Below, one piece after another: positions 21,490 to 56,332 of a stretch of DNA of 64,000 bases (positions are counted from its first letter, which is position 1; each line of letters opens with the position of its first letter). Source of the stretch: Notolepis coatsorum. Lineage: Eukaryota; Chordata; Actinopteri; Aulopiformes; Paralepididae. A program made the translations under genes and the position numbers. The stretch spans positions 51,241,125 to 51,305,124 of the forward strand of contig OZ020592.1 of assembly GCA_963971535.1 (NCBI GenBank), read 5' to 3'. The notes under the pieces were generated by a model. That model had not been told where the DNA came from. It did not search any database and was given only the letters and a program-made list of their open reading frames with translations.

Positions 21490-22083
21490 ATGGAAGAAAA
21501 TGAGTGCCAGAAGTATTTGAATTTAATCAGACACCGCATTTATAGCATTGAAAATAATAACTTTGAAAACATGTATCTGAATTTTTTCAGACACCGCATT
21601 TCTGTATCTGAATTTTTTCAGACACCGCATTTATAGTTTCAGACACCGAATTTATAGCATTGCAAATAAATACTTTGAAAATCATGTATCTGAATTTCTT
21701 TGCTCCGAATTTACCTATACGAAATAAAAATGCAGTGTTAATAAAACAATTCGAATGCATAATCAAATTCAATTCGACGCCAAAAAAAAATTCAATGCAT
21801 AATTGCGGTGTATATAATTCGATGTCAAAAATTCGATGCATAATTGCGGTGTATGGAATTCGATGTAAAAAACCAACATCCGGGTTCCCCAGACAGGATA
21901 AGCAATCGAGCTGGATGTAATCGAACGAGATGCATCCAGCTGCAGAACCACAGCACCAGGAGGCTGGGGTCCCGCAGGCTGAGGTCCCTCACGCTTCCAT
22001 TGGCTGATTTGGGTCATGTGACCGTCCCACCCAATGGCTGAATTGGAGTGTTGCACTGCGGGCATTGGCTGATTTGGGTCACG
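21490..22083. repeat. Foldback left arm, outer segment
   Basis: Subterminal region with repeated CAGACACCGCATTTAT and ATGTATCTGAATTTTTT motifs, then TGCATAATTGCGGTGTAT repeated twice. It ends in a block with four CCAAT/ATTGG boxes and TCATGTGAC (22000-22080). The mirror copy is at 55825-56332 plus 54655-54735. Open frames here are shadows of repeats. Confidence 0.8.
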
Positions 22084-22224
22084 TTGCATTGATTGATTGA
22101 TTGATTGAAAACTTTATTAACAGATTGCAGAATGGGTACACGTGACTGCCACAGGCCCTGATTGATTGATTGAAAACTTTATTAACAGATTGTAGAATGG
22201 GTACAGTGACCGATTGATTGATTG

Positions 22225-22270
<46 letters not shown>

Positions 22271-22311
22271 AACTTTATTAACAGATTGCAGAATGGGTAC
22301 AGTGACCGTGA
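22084..22311. repeat. GATT-tract units, left outer block
   Basis: Three units of GATT repeats followed by GAAAACTTTATTAACAGATT and AGAATGGGTACAGTGACC. On the minus strand each carries AATAAA. The mirror block is 54475-54655. Confidence 0.9.
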
Positions 22312-23344
22312 CAGGCCCGGATGCGTCTATATTAATGCCAGCCCAAGAGTGCAAGAGTGCTTCCGCATTCGCCGGTAACCAATGCGCATTTTCTTTTTGA
22401 CGCTCCACAAATGCATGCTTCCCTTGTAACGTTAACACAGCCCAGCTGTCAACTGTACTTTGTAATGTTATGTTATTTCGGGCATTCATAACGTTATTTC
22501 GTGCGACTGTACATTGTAACGTTAACACAGCCCAGCTGTCAACTGTACTTTTTAATGCTATGTTATTTCAGGCATTCATAACGTTATTTTGGGCGTTTTA
22601 TTCATAACAAACATTGACGCGATTCCGCCAACACATATGTAATATTAATAGGTTTTGCTCACAGAGAGATAGATAAATAAATAAACATAATCACGGTTAT
22701 CTACCTCAACAACTGCATGTACTGTAGAAATGTGTGTTTCAGTGCAGATAAAGGTACTGTACAAAATAACCTCTAAAACACTGCTAGAATACACAAGAGA
22801 GATAGATAAATAAATAAACATAATCGCGGTTATCTACCTCAACAACTGCATGTACTGTAGAAATGTATGTTTCAGTGCAGATAAAGGTACTGTACAAAAT
22901 AACCTCTAAAACACTGCTAGAATACACAAGCAGTTAGGGTGCGCTGTGTTAACGTTACAATGTACAGTCGCGCGAAATAACATAATAAGTGAGTGAATCT
23001 GGTCCTCGTTTGGATAATATGTATTCCATTTCCGATGAAAGTACAGTTGACAGCTGCATTGTGTTAACGTTACAATGTACAGCGAAATAACGTTATGGCG
23101 TGTTATGGCGTTATGTGGTCCTCGTTTGGATAATATGTAAAGTACAGTTGACAGCTGCTTTGTGTTAACGTTACAATGTACAGGGAAATAACGTTGCGAG
23201 TGAATCTGGTCTGCGTCGCGATAATATGTATTCCATTTCCGCGTCTGAGTGGCAAAAAAGAAAATGCGCATTGGAGCGCGTTACCGGGGCCAATCAGGGC
23301 AAAATGCGGAAGCGCTCTTGCACTCTTGGGCTGGCATTAATATA
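22312..23344. repeat. Foldback left arm, middle segment
   Basis: This contains three kinds of repeated blocks. GTGTTAACGTTACAATGTACA and ACAGTTGACAGCTG recur at 22425-22560 and 22945-23185. A 133-bp unit with TAGATAAATAAATAAACATAAT occurs twice (about 22664 and 22797). TATTAATGCCAGCCCAAGAG at 22330 and its inverse at 23325-23344 bound an inner inverted repeat. Mirror copies are 44218-44636 and 54147-54475. No gene is present. Confidence 0.8.
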
Positions 23345-23355
23345 GACGCCGCCCG

Positions 23356-23386
<31 letters not shown>

Positions 23387-23585
23387 AACTTTATTAACAG
23401 ATTGCAGAATGGGTACAGTGACCGTGACAGGCCCGGATTGATTGATTGCTTGATTGATTGATTGAAAACTTTATTAACAGATTGCAGAATGGGTACAGTG
23501 ACGTCACAGGCCCGGATTGATTGATTGATTGATTGAAAACTTTATTAACAGATTGCAGAATGGGTACAGTGACGTCACAGGCCCG

Positions 23586-23624
<39 letters not shown>

Positions 23625-23628
23625 AACT
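23345..23628. repeat. GATT-tract units, left inner block
   Basis: Four units as in 22084-22311. Two of them include the full CRE palindrome TGACGTCA (about 23503 and 23573). The last is cut after GAAAACTTT by the poly-T of the L1-A insertion. Confidence 0.9.
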
Positions 23629-23645
23629 TTTTTTTTTTTTTTTTT

Positions 23646-24509
23646 AACTTTCTTTTATTTTGTGTCATAATGAACATCACATTGCAATAATCATACAGTA
23701 TAATATACTTGATTCACATATTCAATGACATTTGTTACTCAGGCTCTTCCCTCTTATTCAATTTGTTTTCAAAGTATTCAGCGTAATCAAAATAAGCTGT
23801 ATAATCCGAGTACGCCTCTTAAACAACCCAGTGGGGAGGGATTTTTACAATTTTTTTTTTTTAGGATTTTTTGTAGGATAAGAAACGAAAAAATAAATAG
23901 AAACATAAATTTAGCAAAAGGAAAAAAAGAAAAAAAAACAACAAAAAAAGAAAAAAAGAGAGAGAGGGCGTCAGACTCATGCTAGTGTATCTCCAGGTAC
24001 AAGGTTACAAGTGACCATCTCTGCATAAACATATCTTTTTTCAGTTGCAATTGTGCAGTCATTTCTTCCATTGTATACATCTGTCTCAGTCTCTTGGTCC
24101 ATTGTTTGATTGTCGGTGGTTGATTTTGTAGCCATGCCATAGTTATCATTTTCCTTGCTATTAACAGTATCACTCTCAAGATGTATAACGTATCTCCATA
24201 GTATGTGCCTTTCGGTATACATCCCAAGATATAGTACGATGGATTCAGAGGTAAGTCAAGATCTAGAATGGTTTTAATCTAATTTTTGATATTCACCCAA
24301 AATGTCTGCACCCTTGGACAGTCCCAGAAAATATGTGTATGATCTCCGATCAATCCACATCCTCTCCAACATAGTGGTGAGGACCCACCAGCAAATCCGG
24401 AGAGAACTTGAGGAGTCCTAAAGTACCTGACCTTGACCTTCCAGTCAAACTCCTTCCACATTGGACTATTTGTGATTTTATGATTGCTTGAATGGCTGTC
24501 CTCCCATTC
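23646..24509 (-). pseudogene. L1-A ORF2 C-terminus and 3' UTR
   Basis: After the stop near 24510 a further frame (24279-24461) carries the C-terminal Cys/His motif CWRGCGLIGDHTHIFWDC, and another (23977-24222) the residual tail. The 3' UTR then runs to the poly-A (poly-T at 23629-23645). Several frameshifts show decay. Confidence 0.7.
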
Positions 24510-25872
24510 TTAATTTTCTATGATCACATTAGCTTCCAACTCCCATTTTTCTTTAATATAGGTGGTGTCTCCTGGATCGTCTAGTTGTAACATGTTGTAA
24601 ATATTGGATATCTGCTTTCTTTCCATCAAGTTTTTTTCTATTGTGTTAATAAAGTACCGCTCCACATTTGTTGGTGGTCTCTTAATTGCTTCCCACTCAC
24701 TGTGAGTCATTACATAGTGTCTTATTTGAAAGTATCTAAACATGTCTTTCGAAGGTAGATCAAAACATTGCTGTAGCTGTGCAAACGATTTAAAACAGTC
24801 TCCTTCCATTAATTGATTGATAGTAACCAGGCCCAAATCCACCCATTTTTTAAAACCCCCATCCTCCATAGCTGGCCGGAATTCTGTATTGTCTGCTATT
24901 GGCATGGCCCTAGATATTGATCGTGGACCTCCCCCCTTTTTCCTTACACTTTCCCATACCTTTAATGTATTTGTAATCCATTTGTTACCAATCTTAATTT
25001 TTTTCCAGTATGCTTTCCCCAGGAATATTATGGATCTGAGAGGGGTCTTTGGAATTGAGTTTTGCTCAATCTGTACCCATCCTGAATCTAGGTCCTTTTG
25101 TATCCAATGCACAAGTATGCGTAATTGAGCTGCCCAGTAGTAGTTTCTTAGGTTTGGTAGACCAAGACCACCCTTGTTCTTTGGCAAACATAGTGTTTTA
25201 AGCCTTACTCTAGGTTTTTTCCTCTGCCAGATAAATTTGGATAGGAGTTTATCTAACCTTTTAAAGGTAGTGGCAGGTATTGGTATAGGTAGAGACTGGA
25301 AGAGAAAAATAAGTCTAGGTAGCACATTCATTCGAATTGATTCTATTCTTCCCACTAGGGAGAGAGGTAAAATGTCCCATCTGGCCATGTCTGATTTGAT
25401 TTGTACAATCAACTTTTCGTAGTTTGCTTGATATAACTGATTGCTGCTGGGAGTCAAAATGATTCCTAAATACCTGAATCCGTCTCTAGCCCAATGGAAG
25501 GGTGCTATACTATTCAGATGTGTTGGCCATGTTCCCACTATCACCATGGCTTCTGATTTGGTCTCATTTATCTTATAACCCGACAGTTCGCCGTAATTTC
25601 TTAAATCCATCATTATGTTTGGAATTGATTCTAAAGGGTTTTTGATATAAAGTAAAATGTCATCAGCAAATAGCGAGATCTTGTGTGTAATGCCTTTTTG
25701 GTCATCTATTCCCTGTATCTGAGGGTTTGATCTAATCATCTCCGCTAGTGGCTCTATGCCAATCGCGAATAGTAACGGAGACAAAACGTCTCCTTGGCGT
25801 GTCCCTCTCTGTATCTCAAAGAAGTGAGAGCAGTGACCATTCAACCTTACTCTAGACTTAGGATTTTTTTTT
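24510..25872 (-). pseudogene. L1-A ORF2, downstream part with catalytic FADD
   Basis: The frame opens with RGTRQGDVLSPLLFAIGIEP and the catalytic block HKISLFADDILLYI (FADD near 25665), followed by thumb and connection motifs such as FRYLGIILTPS, LPRLIFLFQSLPIPIP and FIWQRKKPR. It is the direct continuation of 38024-39000, displaced by 12.1 kb. A stop at 24510 truncates it before the C-terminal Cys motif. No single-protein product is possible. Confidence 0.85.
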
Positions 25873-25890
25873 ATATTTTTTTTATTATTG

Positions 25891-26195
25891 CAAAACAAAA
25901 ATTATTAAAAGTCAGTACTCAACACATAATGCATAATGAAACTTTCAGTCAAGGTGGTTAAAATTACATGCAAGTACAGAAACAAGATAAAACAAAAATA
26001 GTCCATAATAACATTTTAACCGTATACAGTGTATATCCAGCGAAATTACAATTATATAAATGTTAGTATAGAATATACCCCTAATACCTATTTTCTAAAA
26101 CCCTACACACATATGCTCCAGCTCGAACCCCCCCCTCCCGGACCCCCCCTTGGATAGTACCTCCATTATCCCTCACTCCTAACCAGACACTACCA
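25891..26195 (-). other. L1-B 3' untranslated region
   Basis: About 300 bp of AT-rich sequence with a C-rich patch (26128-26150) between the ORF2 stop and the poly-A. On the minus strand an AATAAA lies just before the tail. Confidence 0.6.
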
Positions 26196-26788
26196 TTATA
26201 AGCTAGCTTTTATTCTCTCCACCACTTCTACCCACATTGACATTTTGGATTCATTGAGACCCAGAATTCTTGCTGTAGATATTTCTTGATATATCACATC
26301 GAGATATGTAAGAAACCAAACTTTCCGGCAAATTTTTTCCGGTTGAAACCAGCGTGATGCGATCAGCTTTTTAGCTACTGTGATACCCGATAAAACCAAT
26401 CTCTTTAGCTGTGGATTCACTGCAAACTCAAAAACATCATTCAATAGTAATACCGAGGGGTGTACAGGTATATTCCAAGATACGAGTTTTGATAATTGTT
26501 GGGACACATCTTTCCAGAATGCCTTAACTGGTGGGCAGTCCCAATACATGTGCATAAATGTTCCTTCGTCCCCATTTGTACATTGGGAGCATTTGGAGTC
26601 TTGTTTAAGCCCCATTCTGCACAGTCTTATAGGAGTCAAGTATGTCCTGTGAATATAGTTCAGATTGATTTGTTGATGATCCGGGTTCCTTGATGTAAGT
26701 CGGACATTTGCCCAGGCTCCTTGCCAATCAAAGTCATTTTCCAGGTCTGGTATATCCCTCCTCCAGACAGTGTCTAGTTGAAGGGTTT
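26196..26788 (-). pseudogene. L1-B ORF2, C-terminal part with Cys/His motif
   Basis: This is the continuation of 35756-37990 after the BEL-1 insertion and stays in frame to a stop at 26196. It contains CSQCTNGDEGTFMHMYWDC (near 26550-26605), the C-x2-C...H-x4-C motif of vertebrate L1 ORF2 proteins. The rest is a conserved helical tail. Confidence 0.8.
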
Positions 26789-28224
26789 TGTAACTGAGGG
26801 GTACAATTCCCTGACTGTATTACTAGATATGATACTTACTACCACTACCTTTGTACTTAATATTCGGCCACCCAGTACTCGGCATAAATATATTATGATG
26901 AACACTGTCACGTAGATGAAACGGATCCAACACAAATGTACGAATTAGAAATAGGTCTTTATTTCTACACAGCGATGGTGTGTAGAGCAAGCACTTAATC
27001 AAATCAATCACATTTATGAATGGGAATTAGTATGCACTTTTATGGCAAGAGTATTCGTCGGTATATCAATAGAGAATGTCCAATCTCTGAAGGCGCAGGT
27101 GGTACATATACGACCTGGAATAGTTTAAGGAATAACAGCAATGATACTTTAATGATTATATACTGGATACACTAGGGGGGGTTAATCCGGTCGCTTGTAA
27201 GCCGACAGGAGTAGGAAGGGGGGGGGGGGGTAGAATCCGGCTGCCTCATCCGGCCAAGGGTATCCCAGGTGAACCCACTGTAGTGCCGTTCAATGCGCCG
27301 GCGATCCTTGGACCACAGATGAAAGCAGGTGGACTCTTTGTGGGCCGGCGTCCTCCGGTCCACGGGGGAGAGACGTGAAGCGACCTCGTCTTGCAGAGCG
27401 TCTCCTCACCTTGCGTCCTCTCCAGGGGGGGGGGTTCCAACACACGGCAGTGTCGGGGGTCTTTATCCATGGAATAATCAACGTATACAAAGCATAATCC
27501 GTGCCTGGGAAGGCGGGCTGTCGTCGGTAGAATAATCCGGTATACAGGTCCACTCGCTCGTCGGCTCTGGGGCTCCTCGGGTGCAGCTTCACGTGGGGTC
27601 AACCACCCTGGATAAGCAGCCAGTTCTCTGCCCGAAACGATGGGGTACTGACTACGGTAGTATTCTCACCGCACGAAGCACTATATATTAACAGACTATT
27701 ATTAGCTTAATAGACTACGTCCAACTCGACGATATAGTGCCAAATATGACTATTCAAATATTAATATACACGATGTCTCAATACCGATGGTAGGCGAACT
27801 TGGCCTTACTCCCACACGTGGCGTCGCGGGGAGGCTTTACGTCTGTGACTCTATTGGAGGGTAAGAAACTGGACTGAAAAGGAAGTCCTACTTTAGTAGC
27901 GCAGTATATATATGCACTATGAACAAATAGTCCCATTAGTGGTGCGGTAGCCAGATTCCTACGCGGAACTAGGACTTGTTCGTACATGTTGAGCGGTACG
28001 TTTGAACTGGGTCTGGGGGGTATGGCAGCCTGGCACCAAGGTCTCGACCAATAGTAGAATGGAGACTATTATGGGATGTTCAGTAGGCTAGAATGGATAT
28101 TCAATGCATATTGTACAAGGAATATACAAGGGATATCAAGGAATATTAGAGAATATACAAATACAATTAAATATATATATATAAATAAATATATATATTC
28201 GGTTTAATCTGGCCCTTCACAACA
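26789..28224 (-). repeat. BEL-1 3' LTR
   Basis: TG...CA ends (minus strand TGTTGTGAAGG...CAGTTACA). Internal short open frames are not genes. Compare 34321-35755. Confidence 0.95.
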
Positions 28225-28234
28225 GCCACCCCCT
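28225..28234 (-). promoter_or_regulatory. BEL-1 polypurine tract
   Basis: AGGGGGTGGC on the minus strand directly before the 3' LTR, the plus-strand DNA primer position. Confidence 0.65.
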
Positions 28235-28332
28235 GATTGGTCCCAGACCTAATCAGTTAAACAGAGACAGATTAATCGCGTTGTCTATTTACACATAAGG
28301 GTTTGCTGTAGGGGTCAGTCAACTTCACAAAG
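28235..28332 (-). other. BEL-1 3' untranslated spacer
   Basis: Short sequence between the pol stop and the polypurine tract. No other feature. Confidence 0.6.
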
Positions 28333-28875
28333 TCATAGGGTTATAGGGTCATGGTCATCATCGATTGTGTCTGGGAGTCGGGGCAGTTCTATGAGCCTCG
28401 CCACGGGACGGGTGTAAGTGCGACCCTGGACAAGCACTTCAGCTGCTCGGACCTTGCCGTCGGCACCGGTGATCACTTTGCTTACGCGGCCGGCCGGCCA
28501 CATAGCTCTGGGCAGTGATTGATCAATAATCATGACGACTGTTCCTTCTGTCAAATTGTCTCTCTCCTTTACCCACTTCTGGCGGGTCTGTAGAGACGGT
28601 AGGTAGTGCAGTAGGAAACTGCTCCAAAACTTGTCGGCTAATACTTGGCTGTACCTCCACATTCGTCGGCCGTTCGCTTCTTCAGGCCGGTACATTGTCT
28701 GGGGTAATGCAGGATCTAGCCGCCCCATCAGGAGTGTGTTGGGGGTAACTGGGTCGATATCCGCCACATCACTGGAGACATATCCGAGGGGCTTCGAGTT
28801 AAGTACTCCCTCAATCTCCGTGAGGACTGTCATTAGGACTTCTTCCGCCACAGTCTGGTGCCCCAAGTACTGCAT
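28333..28875 (-). pseudogene. BEL-1 integrase C-terminal part, shifted frame
   Basis: This continues the integrase protein after the frameshift: VLNSKPLGYVSSDV, TPNTLLMGRLDPALP and a DUF5641-like tail with TEGTVVMIIDQSLPRAMWP, typical of BEL/Pao C-termini. It ends with a stop at 28333. Confidence 0.85.
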
Positions 28876-30796
28876 ACAGGGCTGTCTTTATGGAGCGCAC
28901 TTCTCGTTCCCAAGTGCCACCGAAGTGGGGTGCGTTTGGGGGGTTGAATTGGAAATCAACCTGTGCTGGAGCGAGGTGGGTCTTAAGTTCTGGGCCCATA
29001 GCTTGGAAGCTCTCTCTCAGCTCTCTTTCGCCGCCTTTGAAGTTTGTCCCATGATCGGACAATAGGGTAGACGGTCTTCCTTTCCGTGATGTGAATCTAC
29101 GGAAGGCCATAAGGAATGAGTCTGTGCTCATGGTCGGGAGAAGCTCGATGTGTATCGCTCTGGTGGTCATGCATTTGAATACAATACCCCACCGCTTCTC
29201 GGTTCCTCTTCCTTTCTTTATGTGCAGCGGGCCAAAGCAGTCCATACCCGTTGAGTGGAATGGCTTGTCACCGATTCGGAGGCGACATGGAGGAAGGTCA
29301 GCCATCCTTGGTATGCTGGGCTGCGCGCGCCACTTGCGGCAGTCTAGACATGTTCGCTGGAAGCGTCGTACCGCCTCTCTTCCTTGTAGGATCCAGTAAC
29401 GACGTCTGATTTCCGCGAAGACTCTTTCTGCTCCTGCGTGATGTACATCCTCATCGTATTTCTTTATAATCAGCTCTGTGACCTTGTGTCGGCTGTTCAA
29501 TACGATCGGGTATTTAATGTCATCCGGTAGATTGGGGGCTCTGCGTAGGCGACCACCCACTCTGATGAGGGTATGAGCGTCGCTCTCGGGGGCCAGATGA
29601 ATTAATCTGCTGTCGGATGGGACGGGCTTTCCTCCCTGTAGACAGGCCAATTCATCGGGGAACGAGTCTCTCTGGGCTCGCTGCAGTAGAAGCAATTCTG
29701 CTTCCTCGTAGTTAGCTGCTGACATATCAGCGGGGGACTTGCACTCCGGGTGGTACCGCAGGAATGTTCTTTGTTGTGCACTCTCTATGGACGTGCAATC
29801 GTCTATGTTAGGGTCGGTGGAGGCTACGGTGCTCAATCCACAGAACACAGACTTCTTATTTTCCACCTCCTCTGGACTTGCTTCCCTCGGGATAGGCATG
29901 GGCCACTGTCCTTCCGGGAGTCTTAGGAATGCTGGGCCGTCACTGTAGACATTGCGACGGGTGAGGTCATCCAGGGGCATCCCCCGGGTGATGACGTCAG
30001 CTGGGTTCTGTTTTGTATCAACGTAGCGCCACTCTGTTTCTCCGGTTAACTCTTCGGTTAAGTCTTGAATCTCGGTGACTCTGACTCCCACGAAGACTTT
30101 GTACTTGCATGAGTCCGATTTAATCCAGGCGAGTACTGTCGTGGAATCTGACCACAGGATTGTTCTAGACACCGGTATGGTGAGCTCACGTTGGATGAGC
30201 GTGGCTAGGTGCGCTCCGGCTAGGGCTGCGCAGAGCTCTAGACGTGGGATAGATTGTTGCTTGCGTGGGGCTATTCTCGAGCGGGCGAAGACAAATGCTG
30301 TGTAGATCTCTCCCCCCTTTTCTTGGGCCCGCAAGTAGGCTACTGATCCGTATGCGACCTCTGAGGCGTCACTGAAGACGTGTAAGTCCATTTTACATGT
30401 CTCTGGCCTCACCGTGGGTGGGAAGTAGCTTCGGCGCATATTAACGCCTGGGAGTGAGTGGAGCTCCATCTCCCACTCTCTCCAGGTGGATGCAAGGTGT
30501 GCGGGAATGGGGTCGTCCCAGCCCTGGTCCTTGTCCCACAATGCTCGTACAATCATTTTTGCCCTGGTGGTGTACGGTAGAATACATCCTAGCGGGTCAT
30601 ATTGTCGGGCGAGTGTTGTGTACACACTCCGTCTGGTGGTCGGCGCCGCCGCCGGCCTTCCCTGCTCCGTAGTCAGGGGCTTGTGTCTGTAGTGAAGCGA
30701 ATCTGTTTTGAATCGCCACACCAATCCCAGGGTCATCTCCTGGGCTGAAAGGCTTTGTAGACAGTTGTCTACGTAGAAGCTGTTCTTTACGCTGTG
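28811..30796 (-). pseudogene. BEL-1 reverse transcriptase end, RNase H and integrase
   Basis: Downstream of the nonsense codon the same frame continues with FYVDNCLQS (30760-30785). Then about 55 residues present in BEL-2 are missing (junction near 30740). RNase H has VFSDASEVAYG, PRLELCAALAG and LWSDSTTV. Integrase has an HHAGAERVF...CLDC zinc-binding region and D, D, E residues in GMDCFGP, LLSDHGTNF and GTWEREV. A 1-bp insertion near 28859 shifts the frame after the last catalytic residue. Confidence 0.9.
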
Positions 30797-44184: not shown

Positions 44185-44215
<31 letters not shown>

Positions 44216-44807: not shown

Positions 44808-45391
44808 ATCGGCGGATCGCTCAAACCGGAAACCGGAAACGGAGGCTGGTGCTCATTCCAATTCGGTCCGATCACTCGCTAATAGTCCCGGGACTCGAGC
44901 TAGACACAATGGATAGCAATCCGTTACCAATAACTCGATAAACAACATGATTTGGACGTATATACTATTATACAACCTGGAGATGGATCGCATATTTCAA
45001 CATCCCATAATAGGAATATTTCTGCTCCACGCTCATTGCCCAATGCTACGAGGAAGCTACGGTGAGATTCAGCGTTTTTTTTTAACGTGTTCGATACAAA
45101 CTGCTCTAATGATCATATCACCCACACTATGAATCATCTAACGTTGGCCACGGAATTATAAACGACCCCCCCCCCCCCATCCGGTCAACATAAGATGATA
45201 AGTAGTAACTTCTAGCGGTCCATTTGAATTTTTTTATCTCGCGCAGATCGCTATCAAACTGTATTTGATCATCAATATAATGCATTTAGGGCTATAAATC
45301 ACGTTCTGGAGAATGCTGCAGAAAACGATAAAAAACATACTTATACTTTAGACCGTATTTTAGTATGAATATGTGAATGAAAAAGTATAAC

Positions 45392-46793
45392 TGTAACTGA
45401 GGGGTACAATTCCCTGACTGTATTGATAAGTATGGTATTATTAAACCACTACCGCTTGTACTTTAACTTCTGGCCATCCAGTACATGATATAGATATGAT
45501 GAACACTTTCCCACCTGATGAAACGAAGTCCACACAAATGTATAAATCGAATATTTTATATAGCAAAGGGTATATACAACGTTCACTTAATGACATTTAT
45601 GATTTGAAATGCACTTGTAAGGCAAATGAGTATTCGTAGGTAAATCAACATTGAATGTCCAATCTCTGGTTACGCAGGGAGCAAGTATACAACCTGGTTC
45701 GTTAGGGAACTATAGCGATGGTACTTAAATGATTATAGCTGGATACACTAAAGGGGGGGGGGGGGGTCCTGCTGGTTGTAAGACAGTAGGGGGGGGGGTT
45801 AGAAGAGCCGCTGGCGGTATCCCATCTGGCCGACGATTTCTTGGGAGAATTCAGAGTGCTGAACACGGTGCCCACAGAACCTCGGTCCGCAGATGAATAC
45901 AGCTGGACCCTCTGGTGGACGGTAGCTGCCGGTCCACAACGAAGAGACGTGAGGCGACCTCACTCGGGGTAGAGCGCCGTCTCACCTGGACTCCTCTCCG
46001 GGGGGTAGTTCCAACACTCAGCAGTGTTGGCCGTTATCCATGGCATAATCAAAGCACCCAAAGCATGTAGATAATCCAAGCCGTGGAAGGCTCGCCGTCG
46101 TCCGGGTAAAGTAATCCAATGTACAGGTCCACTCGTCCTGGCCCGGAGCTCCTCGGATGCAAGCACCACACGTGGTCTGCCCAGCCTGGTTAAGACTCCA
46201 GATAACGTCAGGAACGATGGGGGTACTGCTCACTTTATAACTCTAACCGAACGATGCACCATACATAATAGACTATTATTAACTTAATAGAAATACGTCC
46301 CACTCGACGGTATAGTGCCAAACTATGACAATTCAACTATCAATCCACACAATGTCTCAATGCCTATTCTGAGGCCAAGTAGGCCTTACTGCACCACACG
46401 TGCGTCGTGGGTGAGGCTTCGCGTCTGTTACTAGGTTGGAGGGTAAAGGACTAATGGACTAAAAGAAAGTTCTACTTTACTTGCGCCATATATATATGCG
46501 CTGTGAACAAATAGTACCATTCGTATTTCGCCAGACGTATTCCTACGCGGAACCGGGCTTGTAACGACATGTTTGTCGGCACGATTGAACTTGAACCAAG
46601 GGGCATGGCTGCTGGCGCCAGGTTCTCGTCCAATGGTAGAATGAAACTATTATGGGCTGTTAGTAGACTAAAGGGATATTCAGTGCATATTGTACAAGGA
46701 ATATACAGGGGATATCAAACGATATACAAATACTATTAAATATATATCCATAAATAAATATATATATTCGGTTTAATCTGATCCTTCACAACA
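45392..46793 (-). repeat. BEL-2 3' LTR
   Basis: TG...CA ends; partner of 52569-53970. Poly-G runs near 45750 and 45790 differ in length from the other LTR. Confidence 0.95.
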
Positions 46794-46803
46794 GCCGCCC
46801 CCT
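46794..46803 (-). promoter_or_regulatory. BEL-2 polypurine tract
   Basis: AGGGGGCGGC on the minus strand next to the 3' LTR. Confidence 0.65.
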
Positions 46804-46886
46804 AATTAGTCCCACCTAATTAGCTAAGCAGAGACAGATTAACCGCACTGTCTACCACTCAAGGTCCGCTGTAAGGGTCAGTCAAC

Positions 46887-49800
46887 TCACAAAGTCATGG
46901 GGTCATGGTCATCATCGATAGTGTCTGGGAGTCTGGGCAGTTCTATTAGCCTCGCCACGGGTTGTGTGTAAGTTCGCCCTTGGACGAGCACTTCAGCTGC
47001 TCGGACCTTGCCATCGGCACCGGTGATCACTTTGCTTACGCGGCCAGCCGGCCACATAGCTCTGGGTAGTGACTGGTCGATAATCATGACGACTGTTCCT
47101 TCTGTCAAATTGTCTCTCTCTTTTACCCACTTCTGGCGGGTCTGTAGAGACGGTAGGTAGTGGAGTAGGAAGCTGTTCCAAAACTTGTCAGCTAGCACTT
47201 GACTGTACCTCCACATTCTTCGGCCGTTCGCTTCTTCAGGCCTGTACATTGTCTGGGGTAGCGCGGGGTCCAGCCGCCCCATTAAGAGTGTGTTGGGGGT
47301 GACTGGGTCGACATCTGCTACATCACTGGAGACGTAGCCGAGGGGCTTGGAGTTCAATACTCCCTCGATCTCCGTGAGGACTGTCATTAGGACTTCCTCC
47401 GCCACAGTCTGGGCCCCAAGCACGGCGTACAGGGCTGTCTTTATAGAACGTACTTCTCGTTCCCAGGTTCCACCGAAGTGGGGTGCGTTCGGGGGATTAA
47501 ACTGGAAGTCAATCTGGGATGGAGCGAGGTGGGTCTTAAGTTCTGGGCCCATAGCTTGGAAGCTCTCTCTCAGCTCTCTTTCTCCGCCTTTGAAGTTTGT
47601 CCCGTGATCAGACAACAATGTAGACGGTTTTCCTTTCCGTGATGTGAATCTTCGGAAGGCCATAAGGAATGAGTCTGTGCTCATGGTCGGAAGGAGTTCG
47701 ATATGGATCGCTCTGGTGGTCATGCATTTGAATACAATACCCCACCGCTTCTCGGTTCCTCTTCCTCTCTTTATATACAACGGGCCAAAACAGTCCATGC
47801 CTGTGGAGTGGAATGGCTTGTCGCCGAGTCGGAGGCGACAGGGAGGTAAGTCAGCCATCCGGGGTATGCTGGGCTGCGCGCGCCACTTTCGGCAGTCTAG
47901 ACAGGTTCGCTGGAAGCGTTGCACCGCTTCTCTTCCTTGAAGTATCCAATAGCGACGTCTGATCTCCACGAAGACTCTCTCTGCTCCTGCGTGGTGTACA
48001 TCCTCGTCGTATTTCTTTATGATCAGCTCTGTGACCTTGTGTCGGCTGTTCAAGACTATCGGGTACTTAATGTCATCCGGTAGATCGGGGGCTCTCCGCA
48101 GACGACCACCCACTCTGATGAGATTATGGGCGTCGCTCTCGGGTGCCAGGTGGAGCAGTCTGCTGTCTGATGGGACGGGCTTTCCTCCCTGTAGACAGTC
48201 TAGCTCGTCGGGGAACGAGTCCCTCTGGGCTCGTTGTAGTAGAAGAAGTTCTGCTTCTTCGTAGTCAGCTGCTGAAATGTCAGTGGTGGACTGAATCTCT
48301 GGGTGGTGCCACAGGAATGTCTTTAGATGCGCACTCTGTAGGGTAATGCAATCATCTATGTTGGGGTCTGTGGAGGCGACTGTGCTCAGTCCACAGAACA
48401 TAGGTTTCTTGTTCTCAGCCTCCTCTTTACTTGCTTCCCGTGGGGTGGGCGTAGGCCACTCTTCTTCCGGGAGCTTGAGGAATTCTGGTCCGTCACTGTA
48501 GATGTTGCGACGGGTGAGGTCATCCAGGGACATTCCCCGGGTGATGACGTCAGCTGGGTTGTGTTTGGTGTCCACATACCGCCAGCTCGCTGCTTCTGTT
48601 AACTCTTGAATCTCGGTGACTCTGACTCCCACGAAGACCTTGTATCTGCATGAATCAGACTTGATCCATGTGAGTACTGTCGTGGAATCTGACCACAAGA
48701 TTGTTCTGTGCACCGGAATGGTGAGTTCACGTTGGATTAACGTGGCTAGATGCGCTCCTGCTAGGGCTGCGCAGAGCTCTAGACGCGGGATAGATTGTTG
48801 CTTTCGTGGGGCTATTCTTGAGCGAGCCAGGATGAAAGCAGTGTGTATCTCTCCTCCCTTCTCTTGGGCACGCAAGTAGGCCACCGATCCATAGGCTACT
48901 TCGGAGGCGTCACTGAAGACGTGTAGATCCATCTTGCATGTCTCTGGCCTCACTGTGGGTGGGAAGTAGCTACGGCATATATTGACGCCTGGGAGTGAGC
49001 GGAGTTCCGTCTCCCACTCTCTCCATGTGGAGGCAAGGTGTGCGGGTATTGGGTCGTCCCAGCCCTGGTCCTTGTCCCATAGTGCTCGTACAATCATCTT
49101 TGCCCTGGTGGTGTAAGGTAGAATACATCCCAACGGGTCATATTGTCTGGCGAGTGTTCTGTACACACTCCGTCTGGTGGTCGGTATCGCCGTCGACCTT
49201 CCCTGCTCTGGAGTCAGGGGTTTGTGTCTATAGTGGAGCGAGTCTGTTTTGAAGCGCCAGACTAGTCCTAGTGTCATTTCTTGGGCTTCTCCTGGGATGG
49301 TCGCCATCCAGGTCTCGCTGCTGGCAGCCTTGTCCGCGGGGGAGAGGCTGCGCAATACGTGCGGGTCACTGCTGGCCCACTGCCTGAGATCAAAGCCGCC
49401 TTTGATCAGGGAGGCGCGTAGCTTGATTAGGAGAGCCTCGGCTTCTTCTTGAGTCGAAACGCTTTGTAAACAGTTGTCCACGTAGAAACTGTTCTTCACA
49501 CTGTGTCGGACCTCTTCATCTGCTGCTGGGTCCTCTGCGACCTCTGGGTTGAGGTTGCGCAATACTGGGGGGTCGCTGCTGGCCCGCTGCCGGAGATCAA
49601 AGCCATCTTTGATCAGGGAGGCGCGGAGCAGCGCACGACGTCGCCAGTCAATTTTCTTCTCGACATGCTGCAGGAGTGTGGTGTCTCCTTCTGTCGTTCT
49701 GGAGTGGAGGCAGCTAGTGGCTGCTGTTCGGTTGAGAGATTTAGCGAGGGGGCCTTGTAGTGTCCACCCTAGGCGGGTCTCGACTGCTGCAGGACAGCCT

Positions 49801-52352
49801 CGGGGTCCTGTATGGACCCGGTCTATCGGGACGATGAGGTCTGCATGGTCGGAGCCTATCAGCAGGGTCGGGGTGGCGCCGTCTATGAGCGGGATAGGTA
49901 GTTGACGCAGGTGCACATATTTATCCATCAGCTTGGCGATGGGGTAGGTGTACTGCGATAGTCCTATTTCTTGGCTGGTGAAAGCATTTGTAATCCTATA
50001 CCGTCGCTCTGGCTGCCCGCTTGCTGCGATAGTGAAGGAGACATTCTCGCCCTTTATCGTCTTTAAATCTCTTCTTATTGTCCGAATCGTCATTTGGTTC
50101 TCGCTCCCCCGCAGTCCCAGCTGGGCCGCAGCGGACGCGAGCAGAAGGGTCTTCTCTGACCCGTCATCAAGGACGGCGTAAGTGTCCATGACTTTATCTT
50201 GGTAGCTCAATGTCACACGGACTACCTTTAAGAGCACTTGGGCGCCACTGCTGCTGGCGGGGTCAATGTACATGACACTTGCCCTGGTGCCGCTCGATGG
50301 TGCAGGTGCAGGCCTTCTTCTGTTACTGTCGTGTAGTATATCTAGATGGGCTCCATCACACCGACTGCACCTTTTCTTTAGGCGGCATTCGGCTGCCATG
50401 TGACTGCGCGCACATCGGTAACAGCGCCTGTTGGACTTTATCCATTGACTCACTTCTTCTGCATTCATCTTTGTGAACAGGTCACATTGTGACAGCCAGT
50501 GTTCCTTCTCACAGTTGGGGCACACCATCTTCCACTTCTCTTTTCTCGAGGGGGTACTGTGGCTCTTACTGCTCGGTACTGACTCTGATTGGTGCATGAC
50601 AGTCACCGATCTTCTTCCATCGTTTATTCTCCTGGGTCCCTCTCTGGAGCTTGGCGTGCTCCGCACGAACGTATCCAGTCGTAAGCTGCTGACTTCTCTC
50701 GCCAGGAAGTCGGCTAGATCGAGGAGGGATGGTTCGGGACCGTTAGGATCACGGTGGTCTCTCTGCCGCCTAAAACGCTCTTGTCTTGCGGGTGGCAGCT
50801 TCTCTAGAATCCTCTCGACGTTAGAGTTGGCGTATAGCTCATGCATGCCCTTTTCCCGTTGCGCTCCCAGCATCCCTACCAGGGACTGCACTTTGATTGA
50901 CAGGTCGTCTAATGAGCGATTGTCTGTTGCTGGGGGTAGGCGATCAATATGCCTTATCTCTTGGATTACGTAATCCCATATACGTCCATATCTCTGGTCC
51001 AGCGCTGCTAGAGCCGCGGTGTATGGGGTCGTAGAGGTGGCATAGGCTAGCGCTATATTGTGCGCTCGCGGTACTTTCAGGTGCTTCAGTAATATTGCAT
51101 ACTTGTGACGTTCATCAACGACGTCCACCATCATTGTCTCTAAGCACATCCGGAGCTCCGTGTACTGTGCTCGATTCTCATAGGTGAAGTCTGGAAACGT
51201 CTGCGTGGCAATGTATGACGCCGTGGATGGCTGATACATCGGCGAGCGTTGGGGGAGAGACCTCCTAGGCGAGTCTCCTCTTGCGCCTCTCTGTGGGCTG
51301 GTACCGACAGGGTACCATGGCCCGCTGGTCCAGGTGCTATTCCTCGGGGCTGGTCGTGCGTCGTGCTCACCCGTGAATAGAGTCGGGGGTCTGTAGCGCA
51401 GCGCCGCGGGGGTATAGCCTGGGCTGTACTGGACCTCCTGGTCCGGTGGAGTACTGTGCTGTCGTCGGGCTTGGTTCTCCTCCTCTCCCTCTTCTTCTTC
51501 TATCAGGTCCTCTAGATCCTGTAGTCGTTTATTTAGCTTCTCCGCAGTGTATGCCGCTCCTTCCTTGTAGCTGGGTCTCGCTTGGACCGGTCTGGGAAGG
51601 GGGTCTGCGGGGGGTATAGGCTTGGTCTGTTGGTCAAGTTCAGGGTCGCTTGCTCGGTTAGGAGACGCTGCCCTTGACTGTTGTCTCGACGAGTTCCTTG
51701 AACCCCTGGCGGAGGGAGAGGGTGTTGCCTTGAGGATCAGCTGCTCCATTAGTTGCGCTTGTAACTTGTCGCGCTCGGCTTCACGCTTGGTGAGATCTGC
51801 TTCTCTTTGGGCACCGGCAGCGGCGCGCTGTGCGTCGGCCCGGTCTCTTGCCATATTCTCTTCCGTCTGAAGGCGTCTCATCTCCAGGCGTATGCGCTCT
51901 TCTTCGCTCCGTTGCTGCGCTTGGAGTTGTTCGCGCTCGATAAGCATCTGTGCTTGGAGTCGATCGCGTTCGCCCTGAAGTCGATCGCGTTCACCCTGAA
52001 GTCGATCGCGTTCGGTAGAGGCTGTCAGGCTGACGAGGAACGCCTGTTGTAGCATCCTCTCCGCTTCGCTGGGGGAAGACGGTTGTAGAGGTGAGCCGCT
52101 CCTGGGTGAGCCGCTCGTTGGGGAGTCCTGGAGCTCTATTTCCTCGGCGCTCTCCTCCTCTTCTTCCGTGCAGAGTTCTCTCTCTGTAGGGTTGTCTTCC
52201 TCCCGGGGCTGGTGGGGGACTACTTCTTCGGTATTGGCGGGGGGTAAAGGCATGTCAGCTCCCTCCTGGTCCCCACCGTGAGCTTGGTCAGTTACATTAG
52301 AACCCACTAGGGCCTCTGTGGTCGGGGAAACCTGGTCGTTAAGGTCAGACAT
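46887..52352 (-). CDS. BEL-2 Gag-Pol polyprotein, rearranged reverse transcriptase (1821 aa)
   Basis: One uninterrupted frame. Residues 1-300 are Glu/Arg-rich with a direct repeat of QGERDRL near 115-130. Zinc knuckles lie near 604 (CPNCEKEHWLSQC), 642 (CYRCARSHMAAEC) and 664. Protease: VLDDGSEKTL near 724. Reverse transcriptase: the fingers and palm seen in BEL-1 (about 220 residues with the first catalytic Asp) are absent. In their place is a diverged duplicate of the thumb segment (RASLIKDGFDLRQRASSDP, about 900-935); the normal copy follows YVDN (near 954). RNase H Asp/Glu/Asp near 1144, 1190 and 1220. Integrase: HHCC near 1451-1485 and D, D, E near 1516, 1581 and 1630. The upstream Met (MNTPRNGPP, 52493-52498) leads to a stop after about 30 codons, so translation may start at 52352. 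It cannot encode a working reverse transcriptase. Confidence 0.85.
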   Translation of the reverse strand: MSDLNDQVSPTTEALVGSNVTDQAHGGDQEGADMPLPPANTEEVVPHQPREEDNPTERELCTEEEEESAEEIELQDSPTSGSPRSGSPLQPSSPSEAERMLQQAFLVSLTASTERDRLQGERDRLQGERDRLQAQMLIEREQLQAQQRSEEERIRLEMRRLQTEENMARDRADAQRAAAGAQREADLTKREAERDKLQAQLMEQLILKATPSPSARGSRNSSRQQSRAASPNRASDPELDQQTKPIPPADPLPRPVQARPSYKEGAAYTAEKLNKRLQDLEDLIEEEEGEEENQARRQHSTPPDQEVQYSPGYTPAALRYRPPTLFTGEHDARPAPRNSTWTSGPWYPVGTSPQRGARGDSPRRSLPQRSPMYQPSTASYIATQTFPDFTYENRAQYTELRMCLETMMVDVVDERHKYAILLKHLKVPRAHNIALAYATSTTPYTAALAALDQRYGRIWDYVIQEIRHIDRLPPATDNRSLDDLSIKVQSLVGMLGAQREKGMHELYANSNVERILEKLPPARQERFRRQRDHRDPNGPEPSLLDLADFLAREVSSLRLDTFVRSTPSSREGPRRINDGRRSVTVMHQSESVPSSKSHSTPSRKEKWKMVCPNCEKEHWLSQCDLFTKMNAEEVSQWIKSNRRCYRCARSHMAAECRLKKRCSRCDGAHLDILHDSNRRRPAPAPSSGTRASVMYIDPASSSGAQVLLKVVRVTLSYQDKVMDTYAVLDDGSEKTLLLASAAAQLGLRGSENQMTIRTIRRDLKTIKGENVSFTIAASGQPERRYRITNAFTSQEIGLSQYTYPIAKLMDKYVHLRQLPIPLIDGATPTLLIGSDHADLIVPIDRVHTGPRGCPAAVETRLGWTLQGPLAKSLNRTAATSCLHSRTTEGDTTLLQHVEKKIDWRRRALLRASLIKDGFDLRQRASSDPPVLRNLNPEVAEDPAADEEVRHSVKNSFYVDNCLQSVSTQEEAEALLIKLRASLIKGGFDLRQWASSDPHVLRSLSPADKAASSETWMATIPGEAQEMTLGLVWRFKTDSLHYRHKPLTPEQGRSTAIPTTRRSVYRTLARQYDPLGCILPYTTRAKMIVRALWDKDQGWDDPIPAHLASTWREWETELRSLPGVNICRSYFPPTVRPETCKMDLHVFSDASEVAYGSVAYLRAQEKGGEIHTAFILARSRIAPRKQQSIPRLELCAALAGAHLATLIQRELTIPVHRTILWSDSTTVLTWIKSDSCRYKVFVGVRVTEIQELTEAASWRYVDTKHNPADVITRGMSLDDLTRRNIYSDGPEFLKLPEEEWPTPTPREASKEEAENKKPMFCGLSTVASTDPNIDDCITLQSAHLKTFLWHHPEIQSTTDISAADYEEAELLLLQRAQRDSFPDELDCLQGGKPVPSDSRLLHLAPESDAHNLIRVGGRLRRAPDLPDDIKYPIVLNSRHKVTELIIKKYDEDVHHAGAERVFVEIRRRYWILQGREAVQRFQRTCLDCRKWRAQPSIPRMADLPPCRLRLGDKPFHSTGMDCFGPLYIKRGRGTEKRWGIVFKCMTTRAIHIELLPTMSTDSFLMAFRRFTSRKGKPSTLLSDHGTNFKGGERELRESFQAMGPELKTHLAPSQIDFQFNPPNAPHFGGTWEREVRSIKTALYAVLGAQTVAEEVLMTVLTEIEGVLNSKPLGYVSSDVADVDPVTPNTLLMGRLDPALPQTMYRPEEANGRRMWRYSQVLADKFWNSFLLHYLPSLQTRQKWVKERDNLTEGTVVMIIDQSLPRAMWPAGRVSKVITGADGKVRAAEVLVQGRTYTQPVARLIELPRLPDTIDDDHDPMTL

Positions 52353-52549
52353 AATTTTACTTTCTACTTTTACCGCGTTTACCGTTTGTCGAAGGCTAGG
52401 TAGTTGACTGACTGGCGTAATCCTCTAAGTACTGAGGTGGCTGTCGTCTGCGCTGCGGGCGTTCTACGTTAGGAGGACCGTTTCGTGGAGTGTTCATCAT
52501 AGGCCATTTCAATATTAATAACACTATATTAATATTACACTAGTTACCC

Positions 52550-52566
52550 TCCGGCTCGAAGGACCA
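52550..52566 (-). promoter_or_regulatory. BEL-2 primer-binding site, tRNA-Tyr type
   Basis: TGGTCCTTCGAGCCGGA on the minus strand, identical to BEL-1 over 17 nt while nearby sequence differs, which supports functional constraint. Confidence 0.7.
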
Positions 52567-52568
52567 AT

Positions 52569-53970
52569 TGTAACTGAGGGGTACAATTCCCTGACTGTAT
52601 TGATAAGTATGGTATTATTAAACCACTACCGCTTGTACTTTAACTTCTGGCCATCCAGTACATGATATAGATATGATGAACACTTTCCCACCTGATGAAA
52701 CGAAGTCCACACAAATGTATAAATCGAATATTTTATATAGCAAAGGGTATATACAACGTTCACTTAATGACATTTATGATTTGAAATGCACTTGTAAGGC
52801 AAATGAGTATTCGTAGGTAAATCAACATTGAATGTCCAATCTCTGGTTACGCAGGGAGCAAGTATACAACCTGGTTCGTTAGGGAACTATAGCGATGGTA
52901 CTTAAATGATTATAGCTGGATACACTAAAGGGGGGGGGGGGGTCCCGCTGGTTGTAAGACAGTAGGGGGGGGGGGTTAGAAGAGCCGCTGGCGGTATCCC
53001 ATCTGGCCGACGATTTCTTGGGAGAATTCAGAGTGCTGAACACGGTGCCCACAGAACCTCGGTCCGCAGATGAATACAGCTGGACCCTCTGGTGGACGGT
53101 AGCTGCCGGTCCACAACGAAGAGACGTGAGGCGACCTCACTCGGGGTAGAGCGCCGTCTCACCTGGACTCCTCTCCGGGGGGTAGTTCCAACACTCAGCA
53201 GTGTTGGCCGTTATCCATGGCATAATCAAAGCACCCAAAGCATGTAGATAATCCAAGCCGTGGAAGGCTCGCCATCGTCCGGGTAAAGTAATCCAATGTA
53301 CAGGTCCACTCGTCCTGGCCCGGAGCTCCTCGGATGCAAGCACCACACGTGGTCTGCCCAGCCTGGTTAAGACTCCAGATAACGTCAGGAACGATGGGGG
53401 TACTGCTCACTTTATAACTCTAACCGAACGATGCACCATACATAATAGACTATTATTAACTTAATAGAAATACGTCCCACTCGACGGTATAGTGCCAAAC
53501 TATGACAATTCAACTATCAATCCACACGATGTCTCAATGCCTATTCTGAGGCCAAGTAGGCCTTACTGCACCACACGTGCGTCGTGGGTGAGGCTTCGCG
53601 TCTGTTACTAGGTTGGAGGGTAAAGGACTAATGGACTAAACGAAAGTTCTACTTTACTTGCGCCATATATATATGCGCTGTGAACAAATAGTACCATTCG
53701 TATTTCGCCAGACGTATTCCTACGCGGAACCGGGCTTGTAACGACATGTTTGTCGGCACGATTGAACTTGAACCAAGGGGCATGGCTGCTGGCGCCAGGT
53801 TCTCGTCCAATGGTAGAATGAAACTATTATGGGCTGTTAGTAGACTAAAGGGATATTCAGTGCATATTGTACAAGGAATATACAGGGGATATCAAACGAT
53901 ATACAAATACTATTAAATATATATCCATAAATAAATATATATATTCGGTTTAATCTGATCCTTCACAACA
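52569..53970 (-). repeat. BEL-2 5' LTR
   Basis: Partner of 45392-46793. High identity implies recent insertion. Confidence 0.95.
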
Positions 53971-53975
53971 ATAAC

Positions 53976-54146
53976 GTTGCTACACCCTGAACAATACATA
54001 CTTGACGTTGAATGGGCCATAGTAATGTCAATTTAGCAATACAATTTAAAAAGTTATAGCCCTGCAAAGAAGGGGAACTTCTCCATAGACAAATAGAGCT
54101 GGCAGAGGATGTTATAATGATGTACATAAGCCTGGCAACCAAAGTG
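53976..54146. other. Right remainder of the piggyBac-like element
   Basis: Sequence after BEL-2 up to the TTAA at 54143. It contains GGGCCATAGTAATGTCAATT, similar to GAGCCATAGTATTGTC in the 12-kb copy. Confidence 0.55.
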
Positions 54147-54474
54147 TTAATATTACATATGTGTTGGCGGAATCGCGTCAATGTTTGTTATGAATAAAAC
54201 GCCCGAAATAACGTTATGAATGCCCGAAATAACATAGCATTACAAAGTACAGTTGACAGCTGGGCTGTGTTAACGTTTCAATGTACAGTCGCGCGAAATA
54301 AGGTTATGAATGCCCGAAATAACATAACATTACAAAGTACAGTTGACAGCTGGGCTGTGTTAACGTTACAAGGGAAGCATGCGTTTGTGGAGCGTCAAAG
54401 AGAAAATGCGCATTGGTTACCGGCGAATGCGGAAGCACTCTTACACTCTTGGGCTGGCATTAATATAGACGCAT
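54147..54474. repeat. Foldback right arm, middle segment (outer half)
   Basis: Inverse of 22312-22645: ACGCGATTCCGCCAACACAT on the left arm appears inverted here (54162-54181). Repeated TAACGTTA and ACAGTTGACAGCTG blocks are shared. Confidence 0.85.
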
Positions 54475-54655
54475 CCGGGCCTGTCACTGTCACTGTACCC
54501 ATTCTGTAATCTGTTAATAAAGTTTTAAATCAATCAATCAATCAATCAATCAAACAATCAACCAATCGGTCACTGTACCCATTCTACAATCTGTTTATAA
54601 AGTTTTCAATCAATCAATCAGGGCCTGTGGCGGTCACGTGTACCCATTCTGCAAC
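54475..54655 (+). repeat. GATT-tract units, right outer block
   Basis: Mirror of 22084-22311, including the unusual CAAACAATC interruption (mirror of GATTGTTTG at 22222). Two AATAAA-type signals face outward; one is changed to TATAAA. Confidence 0.85.
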
Positions 54656-54732
54656 ACTCCAATTCAGCCATTGGGTGGGACGGTCACATGACCCAAATCA
54701 GCCAATGGAAGCGTTAGGGACCTCAGCCTGCA
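54656..54732. repeat. Foldback right arm, outer segment, first part
   Basis: Inverse of about 21975-22050, with CCAATTCAGCCATTGGGTGG. It is interrupted at CAGCCTGCAGG by an inserted element. Confidence 0.8.
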
Positions 54733-55828
54733 GGACGCGTGAATATTAAAGGCAACCAACTTGTGTTCAGCCTTGCGTTCAGCGTTTCTCTGATTGGCTA
54801 CACGGCCACGTGACCGCGCTGCCACGCGACGTGACCGCGCTGCCGTGCGGCAGAGAGTTGCAGTGGCCATCTTCCGTTGTAGAATTGTTAACATCAGGGT
54901 GAACGCTATTGTATTCGCAAATATGAGAGCCAGCAATACGCAGCTCCAGTTAACCTAATTTATACCGTAATGAATCATTAAAAAAATATACCGTTAACTG
55001 GAATATGTTGTTTCTTTACACATATGTTGGGATTATGTAATTGGTTTGTCATGACAAAACAATAAAAATCGCTACTTTACATCAGGGTGAACGCTGTTAG
55101 TAACGCTGCCACCACCCACTTCAATGACAGAGCTCTCATATTTGCGAATGCATAAACTATATCTTAAATTATGGCTATGTGTCTAATATGGCTGTCGCGA
55201 AGTCATTGATAAGCGACAGCCATATTAGACACATAGCCATAATTTAAGATATAGTTTATGCATTTGCAAAATATGAGAGCTCTGTCATTGAAGGGCTTCT
55301 ACAACAGAGCACGGCCGCTGCTGCGTCAAGCCGGCGGCGGCCGCGCACGGAAGCCGGGGACGCACCACCGCATCGCCCCGCTGGCGCTTCAGCTGCCTCC
55401 ACGGGTGAAATAACATATAACGTTACAGCGTACAGTTCCACACTGATGTACAGTGACACCCAGAGTTTCTAGTTACAGTATAGTGACGCGTGAATCGAGA
55501 TAGTCCTAACAGTGTTTATTATTAAGAGTCAGATAGTCCGCACAGTGTTTATAGTCCTAACAGTGTTTATTAGTAAGAGTCAGATAGTCCTAACAGTGTT
55601 TATTATTAAGAGTCAGATAGTCCTAACAGTGTTTATTATTAAGAGTCCTAACAGTGTTTATTATTAATTAACGTCATAAACCAACTACCAGATTTATTTT
55701 GCACCAGGGAACTTGAAGGTTCCTGCCGCTTGCGCTCGCGGCAAAAGGGGGCGGGCTAGCGGCGTGGGGTCGTGGCCAATCAGAGAAAAGATGAACACAA
55801 GTTGGTTGCCTTTAATATTCACGCCTGC
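54733..55828. mobile_element. 1.1-kb insertion with about 60-bp inverted ends, right arm only
   Basis: The left end CGTGAATATTAAAGGCAACC and right end GGTTGCCTTTAATATTCACG are inverted copies, and the similarity extends through AACACAAGTTGG/CCAACTTGTGTT and ATCAGAGAAA/TTTCTCTGAT. Near-duplicated CCTGCAGGA and CCTGCGGGA lie close to the junctions, possibly a 9-bp target duplication (Mutator-like). The left arm at about 21975 shows the empty site. It contains a long hairpin (55121-55291) and repeated CCTAACAGTGTTTATTATTA. No transposase is present. Confidence 0.6.
55121..55291. repeat. Near-perfect 78-bp inverted repeat (hairpin)
   Basis: TCAATGACAGAGCTCTCATA through GGCTGTCGC is followed by a 14-nt loop (GAAGTCATTGATAA) and its inverse. 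Only one or two mismatches and a 1-nt bulge are seen. The arms would form a strong hairpin in DNA or RNA. Confidence 0.9.
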
Positions 55829-56332
55829 GGGACCCCAGCCTGCTGGTGCTGTGGTTCTGCAGCTGGATACATCTCGTTCGATTACATCCAGCTCGATTGC
55901 TTATCCTGTCTGGGTAACCCGGATGTTGGTTTTTTACATCGAATTCCATACACCGCAATTATGCATCGAATTTTTGACATCGAATTATATACACCACAAT
56001 TATGCATCGAATTTTTTTTTGGCGTCGAATTGAATTTTATTATGCATTCGAATTGTTTTATTAACACTGCATTTTTATTTCGCATAGGTAAATTCAGAGC
56101 AAAGAAATTCAGATACATGATTTTCAAAGTATTTATTTGCAATGGTATAAATTCTGTGTCTGAAACTATAAATGCGGTGTCTGAAAAAATTCAGATACAA
56201 AAATGCGGTGTCTGAAAAAATTCAGATACATGTTTTCAAATTCAGATACATGTTTTCAAAGTTATTATTTTCAATGCTATAAATGCGGTGTCTGATTAAA
56301 TTCAAATACTTCTGGCACTCATTTGCTTCCAT
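55829..56332. repeat. Foldback right arm, outer segment and tip
   Basis: Inverse of 21490-21975 with few differences; the left arm has one extra CAGACACCGCATTTCTGTATC block. Tip reads CTTCCAT before the ACATCCCT duplication. Confidence 0.85.

Follow-up and report, generated by a model that had tools for sequence, protein, structure and literature searches.

A foldback transposon family of the fish Notolepis coatsorum with mirrored minisatellite arms, 6-bp target duplications and IS3EU-like ends

The Drosophila FB and sea-urchin TU elements have inverted arms with internal tandem repeats and duplicate 9 bp and 8 bp of their targets, respectively, and the duplication made by Galileo is 7 bp. 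To our knowledge, what keeps the arms of foldback elements mirrored and which transposases drive these elements are mostly open questions. Elements of this kind have been on record since 1980 (as cited in PMC4079207). Tetris of Drosophila virilis makes 8-10-bp duplications, has a repeat unit of about 220 bp and is ascribed to Mutator (PMC4079207). IS3EU elements have TA..TA ends and usually a 6-bp duplication (PMC10045372), and fungal families of the IS3EU type have TAYGG..CCRTA ends with inverted ends of >30 bp (PMC12730594). Here we describe a foldback element of 34.8 kb that occupies positions 21489-56333 of a 64,000-nucleotide window, the whole stretch of DNA analysed, from Notolepis coatsorum (assembly GCA_963971535.1, contig OZ020592.1, positions 51,241,125 to 51,305,124). 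The element is a non-autonomous foldback DNA transposon, in a copy inflated by nesting; we consider it probable that an IS3EU-type transposase serves it in trans and that exchange keeps its arms mirrored.

The preliminary description of the window reported ATGGAAG..CTTCCAT tips flanked by identical 8-mers. Both are exact. The tips lie at 21490 and 56332, and copies of the 8-mer ACATCCCT occupy 21482-21489 and 56333-56340 (the third of its three occurrences in the window is at 32728). Duplication length was scored in 21 copies having both ends read; one spurious pairing (L024 5982/8270; L numbers denote loci read) was left out of the end set, and for L025 a corrected right end was used. Because T stands directly outside the left ATGG tip and A directly outside the right CCAT tip in 21/21 copies, and the outer 8-mer positions on the host side show chance-like variation (A in 5/21, T in 6/21), the ends are placed at TATGGAAG..CTTCCATA. 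The left end reads TATGG in 20 of the 21 copies (TATGA in a copy at C8) and the right end reads CCATA in all of them. The target duplication is 6 bp, not 8 bp. In the window it is CATCCC, at 21483..21488 and 56334..56339. A 6-bp duplication is exact in 15 of the 21 copies, has one mismatch (5/6) in L009 and L021 and is displaced by one base in L010 and L045. When flanks were paired across different copies as a control, 6/6 agreement was seen in only 2 of 306 pairings, both from the spurious L024 pairing. When the whole window was scanned for paired TAYGG and CCRTA motifs having equal 6-mers, a single pair emerged, the foldback element; as about one is reckoned from chance, this is no evidence alone.

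The 3.42-Gb host genome contains many relatives. The arm a query gave 43 matches (40 of the 1,285 first-look candidates were scored) and the tip pattern, with up to three mismatches, gave 899 (439 + 460), the reversed control none; the pattern also had no matches in viral contigs. Pairing was examined in 100 exact tip matches, taken as the first in contig order and hence not a random sample. Sixty-six of these form 33 inward-facing pairs less than 10 kb apart (218-7,265 bp, median 2,429), and only one neighbour pair has another orientation. Copies scattered through the genome thus have paired ends and target duplications, and the preliminary description withstands the refutation it had named, namely that no other locus would have paired tips beside a duplication. 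Taken together, these comparisons show one insertion at 21489-56333 with a 6-bp duplication, a member of a genome-wide foldback family. The relatives read measure 0.2-7.3 kb, plus one 11.8-kb copy with nested retroelements, and two that lack the later inserts of the window copy measure 6.9 and 7.3 kb, so that the epithet "giant", given when the element was first described, does not suit the family. The 11.8-kb copy (C8:15069533-15081328, L042-L044; duplication CGTTTG) has an extra arm piece and contains a copia-type polyprotein frame and a frame of a long interspersed element (LINE). At the other extreme, L047 (C21:118488660-118488977) is a 218-bp tip-only derivative with the duplication CGCGCG. 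Inside a 3,866-bp copy at L024:5982-9845 (duplication CATGTA) there is a further right end, after which comes GCCGATGAAACTG, the host sequence that flanks the L026 copy; here an element seems to have moved together with adjacent host DNA.

The arms of the window copy are composed of a tip domain and two minisatellite arrays in mirrored arrangement. The left arm (plus strand) comprises tip domain a0 of about 397 bp, which starts with TATGGAAG (21489..21885), segments a1 and bO (21886..22087), the outer (22088..22322) and inner (23359..23630) parts of array d, a minisatellite of 71-bp GATT units, and array e of the 9-bp unit AGGTGTGAT (39054..39529). The right arm (minus strand) contains the 9-bp array e' (43037..43602), the GATT array d' (43603..44215), the outer part of d' with bO' (54473..54737) and the tip domain with a1' (55824..56333), which ends with CTTCCATA. 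Segment a1 is also present in both arms of L016, L029 and L046 and in one arm of L045. The inverted pairs lie at 21489-21979/55823-56333, 22125-22648/54147-54654, 22649-22893/44370-44614, 23200-23611/43928-44371, 39020-39529/43125-43636 and 40368-40695/41337-41632. Among 20 first-order-Markov windows searched at E<=1e-3, 19 had no inverted match and one had a single match. Six arm pieces aligned without gaps are 96.7-98.8% identical and together have 34 differences in 1,467 bases; the two arms differ by 2.3%. Rfam and tRNA scans each gave no matches. The mirrored order of at least five blocks that had been proposed (a to e on the left, inverted on the right) was confirmed: the inverted pairs are real, with the qualification that the inner b, c and outer d are a transposon, g, and the innermost pair is a nested element, f, both treated below.

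Most relatives share this architecture. Of 16 relatives tested for the arrays, 14 have the GATT and the 9-bp array in both orientations, and in 12 of the 16 mirroring is strict, every plus unit lying to the left of every minus unit. Among the 14 relatives with both orientations, the ranges overlap in L021 (GATT units) and L024 (9-bp units). The 9-bp array is absent from L012 and both arrays are absent from L023. In the eight copies inspected, no more than tens of bases separate the plus from the minus 9-bp array, at a point close to the centre in most of them and off-centre in L009 and L011. By BLAST, inverted partners span 58-100% of 10 of 12 copies. Long inverted arms with tandem repeats, the foldback hallmark, are thus seen in the window and in most relatives. 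The 899 tips of the genome, the inward-facing pairs and the arrays in 14/16 relatives bear out the foldback reading, and the earlier view of a non-autonomous fish element whose mirrored arms are made of repeats is supported.

Comparison with L046 (7,265 bp, flanked by GTAACC at either end) and L045 (6,920 bp) shows a long subtype having a middle of retroelement-like pieces. In the window, an inner GATT unit and the middle domain (a LINE 3' fragment, unique stretches and an L1-ORF1-like frame) occupy 39530..43036, which, except for f and a short interspersed element (SINE), is common to L046 and partly to L045. The middle pieces that the window has in common with L045 and L046 match at 97-100%. 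Transposon g, f and a 1,086-bp insert are missing from both, and the SINE is missing from L046. Relative to the window, L046 has an extra ~0.74 kb and 2.0 kb, at 42120 and 42538-42548, and two central pieces of the window have no match in L045; hence neither is simply the window copy minus its inserts. The reading frame at 42560..43627 (plus strand), tentatively called L1-ORF1-like, continues in the same frame into the right 9-bp array. A protein search with this frame returned five unnamed proteins, and Pfam gave no L1 match. The junction of frame and array reads FM-SHLSHL in the window and FMSDQLSHLSHL in L045 and L046, which suggests, short of proof, that the 9-bp array originated in the L1-ORF1-like fragment and that the short copies lost the middle. 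Since the L1-ORF1-like piece and the LINE fragment are also found in L045 and L046, late insertion is ruled out for both and they are part of the middle of the long subtype.

What had been taken for inner b, c and outer d (22323-23349) is a single transposon, g, of a separate genome-wide family. In the left arm g occupies 22323..23349 (plus strand), with inverted ends GCGTCTATATTAATGCCAGCCC and the 9-bp duplication GGCCCGGAT/CGCCCGGAT; in the right arm g' (minus strand) is in an inner piece at 44216..44614 and an outer piece at 54147..54472. A genome search gave 920 first-look candidates, of which 40 were scored. Eight copies elsewhere (L034-L041) are 0.76-1.02 kb long and have ends GCGTCTATATTAATGCCAGCCC; their 9-bp flanks agree at 9/9 positions in two copies, 8/9 in four, 7/9 in L034 and 4/9 in L037, and L039 and L040 have flanks identical to each other. 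In each arm of the window, as at C7 (L016, L031), g lies inside the GATT array, flanked, where both sides were read, by GGCCCGGAT or a sequence one change off. Identity to the left-arm copy is 97-98% for the g copies of the right arm and of C7, and at most 90% over the full query or 96% over positions 1-273 for the others among the 40 scored candidates. No match to g was found in L045 or L046. The simplest reading is that g inserted once and was then copied into the opposite arm, although g may instead have inserted twice into the repeated target.

The preliminary description held that the element has no transposase of its own, and so far as Pfam shows this stands for the window copy: none of the 28 frames of at least 70 amino acids in the arm and centre segments (which exclude the LINE fragment and f, 40110-41900) gave a transposase match, nor did any of the nine scanned frames of L045 and L046. 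Frames with Pfam matches at 24510-39626, considered as possible transposases inside the element, proved to be reverse transcriptases or repeat arrays, those of the L1 insert being reverse transcriptases. A protein search with an arm frame gave two candidates, neither significant. The ends are those of IS3EU and the duplication has the length usual for IS3EU. Membership in IS3EU is therefore put forward tentatively from the end signature and, with no transposase found, is unproven.

In the probable mechanism, an IS3EU-type transposase from another element would recognise the tips in trans and mobilise the foldback, and its tandem repeats would grow by slippage. Inserts and repeats of one arm might then spread to the other via recombination or gene conversion, be it inside one copy or from copy to copy, and such spread from arm to arm would account for g being at corresponding positions of the two arms. 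Arms seem to have been shuffled among copies. The tip domains diverge by 0.8-3.0% within elements (16 elements) versus a mean of 1.5-2.0% between elements, and in a tree printed without support values the two arms of the window are not nearest neighbours of each other. More tentatively, and with somewhat more doubt than confidence, we propose that in a fish the foldback design arose within the integrase-like IS3EU lineage, that exchange between arms of different copies maintains the mirroring and that there was a single acquisition each of the 9-bp minisatellite, running in frame out of a captured fragment of L1-ORF1-like kind, and of the whole of g, followed by copying into the opposite arm.

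Several results weigh against this account. Arms of the same element are no closer to each other than to those of other elements, leaving homogenisation within elements alone unsupported. Inverted partners found by BLAST span only 33% of L012 and 31% of L023, and 2 of the 21 copies (L012 and L020) have no duplication. An IS481-family profile run on the genome scored 68 of 33,505 candidates, none above the cut-off and without comparison to all tip locations; the open frames concerned span 256 to 2,524 amino acids and, judged by look, presumably resemble integrases of long terminal repeat (LTR) elements. The failure to find a transposase in either the scanned frames or the IS481 search, together with the shortness of the signature, would also suit a non-autonomous 6-bp foldback of another or unnamed superfamily having TATGG ends like those of IS3EU by coincidence. 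We consider this unlikely, although it is the most serious competitor, as tip, duplication length and inverted-end length all fit the published traits of IS3EU. Assignment to the 8-bp class (relatives of sea-urchin TU, hAT, P, Zisupton or Mutator), which follows the TU-like reading first proposed, is very improbable. The window copy does have an exact 8-mer at both ends and most foldbacks are ascribed to Mutator (PMC4079207), but flanks agree at 8/8 positions in only 3 of 21 copies (window, L025 and L046), where about 1.3 are expected if 6 bp are duplicated, and the fixed T and A belong to the element. The 8-bp duplication is refuted and the TU-like reading based on it is not supported. An assembly artefact or a chance inverted duplication of host DNA, which arms so alike and repeat-rich might bring to mind, can be all but dismissed given arms about 2% apart with different nested inserts and 6-bp duplications at many unlinked loci.

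Later nested insertions have swollen the window copy to 34.8 kb. L1A (23631..39018, minus strand) has its poly-A end at 23631 and the target duplication GAAAACTTT at 23622-23630 and 39019-39027; it apparently hosts a second L1, which together with LTR element 1 seems to split it. Named relatives of a nested L1 are from fish except for three frog entries (among 120 of 293 listed), as befits a fish host. LTR retrotransposon 1 (26788..35756, minus strand; duplication GGTTT) lies inside the L1 region and its LTRs have 2 differences in 1,437 positions; those of LTR retrotransposon 2 (45389..53970, minus strand; duplication ATAAC) have 5 in 1,404. As LTR divergence is far below the divergence between the arms, both elements came in later. 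LTR element 2 is hosted by an insert with ends CTTTTGATTGCC..GGCAACCAAAGTG that separates the two g' pieces (44615..54146) and around which no target duplication was seen.

The smaller inserts, too, can be told by their own duplications. What we take by eye to be a SINE (39733..39971, plus strand) has the target duplication AAAATGGGGGACCC. Mapping of the window on L046 gave a 15-bp overlap at the SINE, equal to its duplication; an exact pattern for the empty site had no match, and the absence of the SINE from L046 rests on the alignment map. The innermost inverted pair is an independent nested element, f (40368..41632, 1,265 bp), which is itself foldback-like, with tips GGGTCCTACTAATCACCCC, arms of about 10-bp repeats of the ACCCCAAAAT type and its own 8-bp duplication GATACCGG/GATACGGG. 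The same map gave an 8-bp overlap at f, its duplication, and exact-pattern searches found the empty site, a single GATACCGG, in L016, L045 and L046, which rules out f as an arm block. The 1,086-bp DNA transposon (54738..55823) has 32-bp inverted ends CGTGAATATT.. and a 9-10-bp duplication with one mismatch, and its empty site is present, by exact pattern, in the left arm of the window, L016, L045 and L046. A 120-bp tandem array at 59304-59894 of the window adjoins a 47-bp match to this transposon (54965-55011). Subtracting the L1s with LTR element 1, and LTR element 2, from 34,843 leaves about 10.9 kb, in line with the ~11 kb first estimated for the element before insertions, although further inserts are still nested inside that remainder. 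Elsewhere in the window are a nearly pure AGAC tetranucleotide repeat of 1.4 kb (4192-5582) and further retroelement frames (reverse transcriptase, aspartyl protease, DUF4939, DUF1759) at 7403-9930 and 62481-63878.

With several hundred tips, and tip domains about 2% apart in the compared copies, the family makes the questions of mirroring and of the transposase testable in one genome; its copies come in short, long and swollen forms, keep their 6-bp footprints intact and contain nested inserts that can be dated. If the assignment is right, the foldback design would extend beyond the Mutator and P superfamilies. No fish foldback with IS3EU ends was found among the titles and abstract openings listed, a search apart from Repbase, Dfam and FishTEDB; PMC8268682 contains both words, with foldback only in its reference list. 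FB and TU resemble the fish element in their repeat-bearing inverted arms and differ from it in duplication length. Galileo, of the P superfamily, shares very long foldback-like inverted ends (PMC3688188, PMC4168063), but has a P-type transposase. Tetris is similar in its modular inverted arms with flanking, tandem-repeat and inner domains, its non-coding middle and its apparent lack of autonomy; it differs in its ~220-bp unit, its ascription to Mutator and its 8-10-bp duplication (PMC4079207), that of the fish element being 6 bp. Compared with IS3EU and GingerRoot, the fish element is without a transposase gene found and has minisatellite-built foldback arms, a feature not mentioned for IS3EU in the available text, whereas it shares with them the TA..TA (TAYGG..CCRTA) ends, the 6-bp duplication and inverted ends of >30 bp (PMC10045372, PMC12730594).

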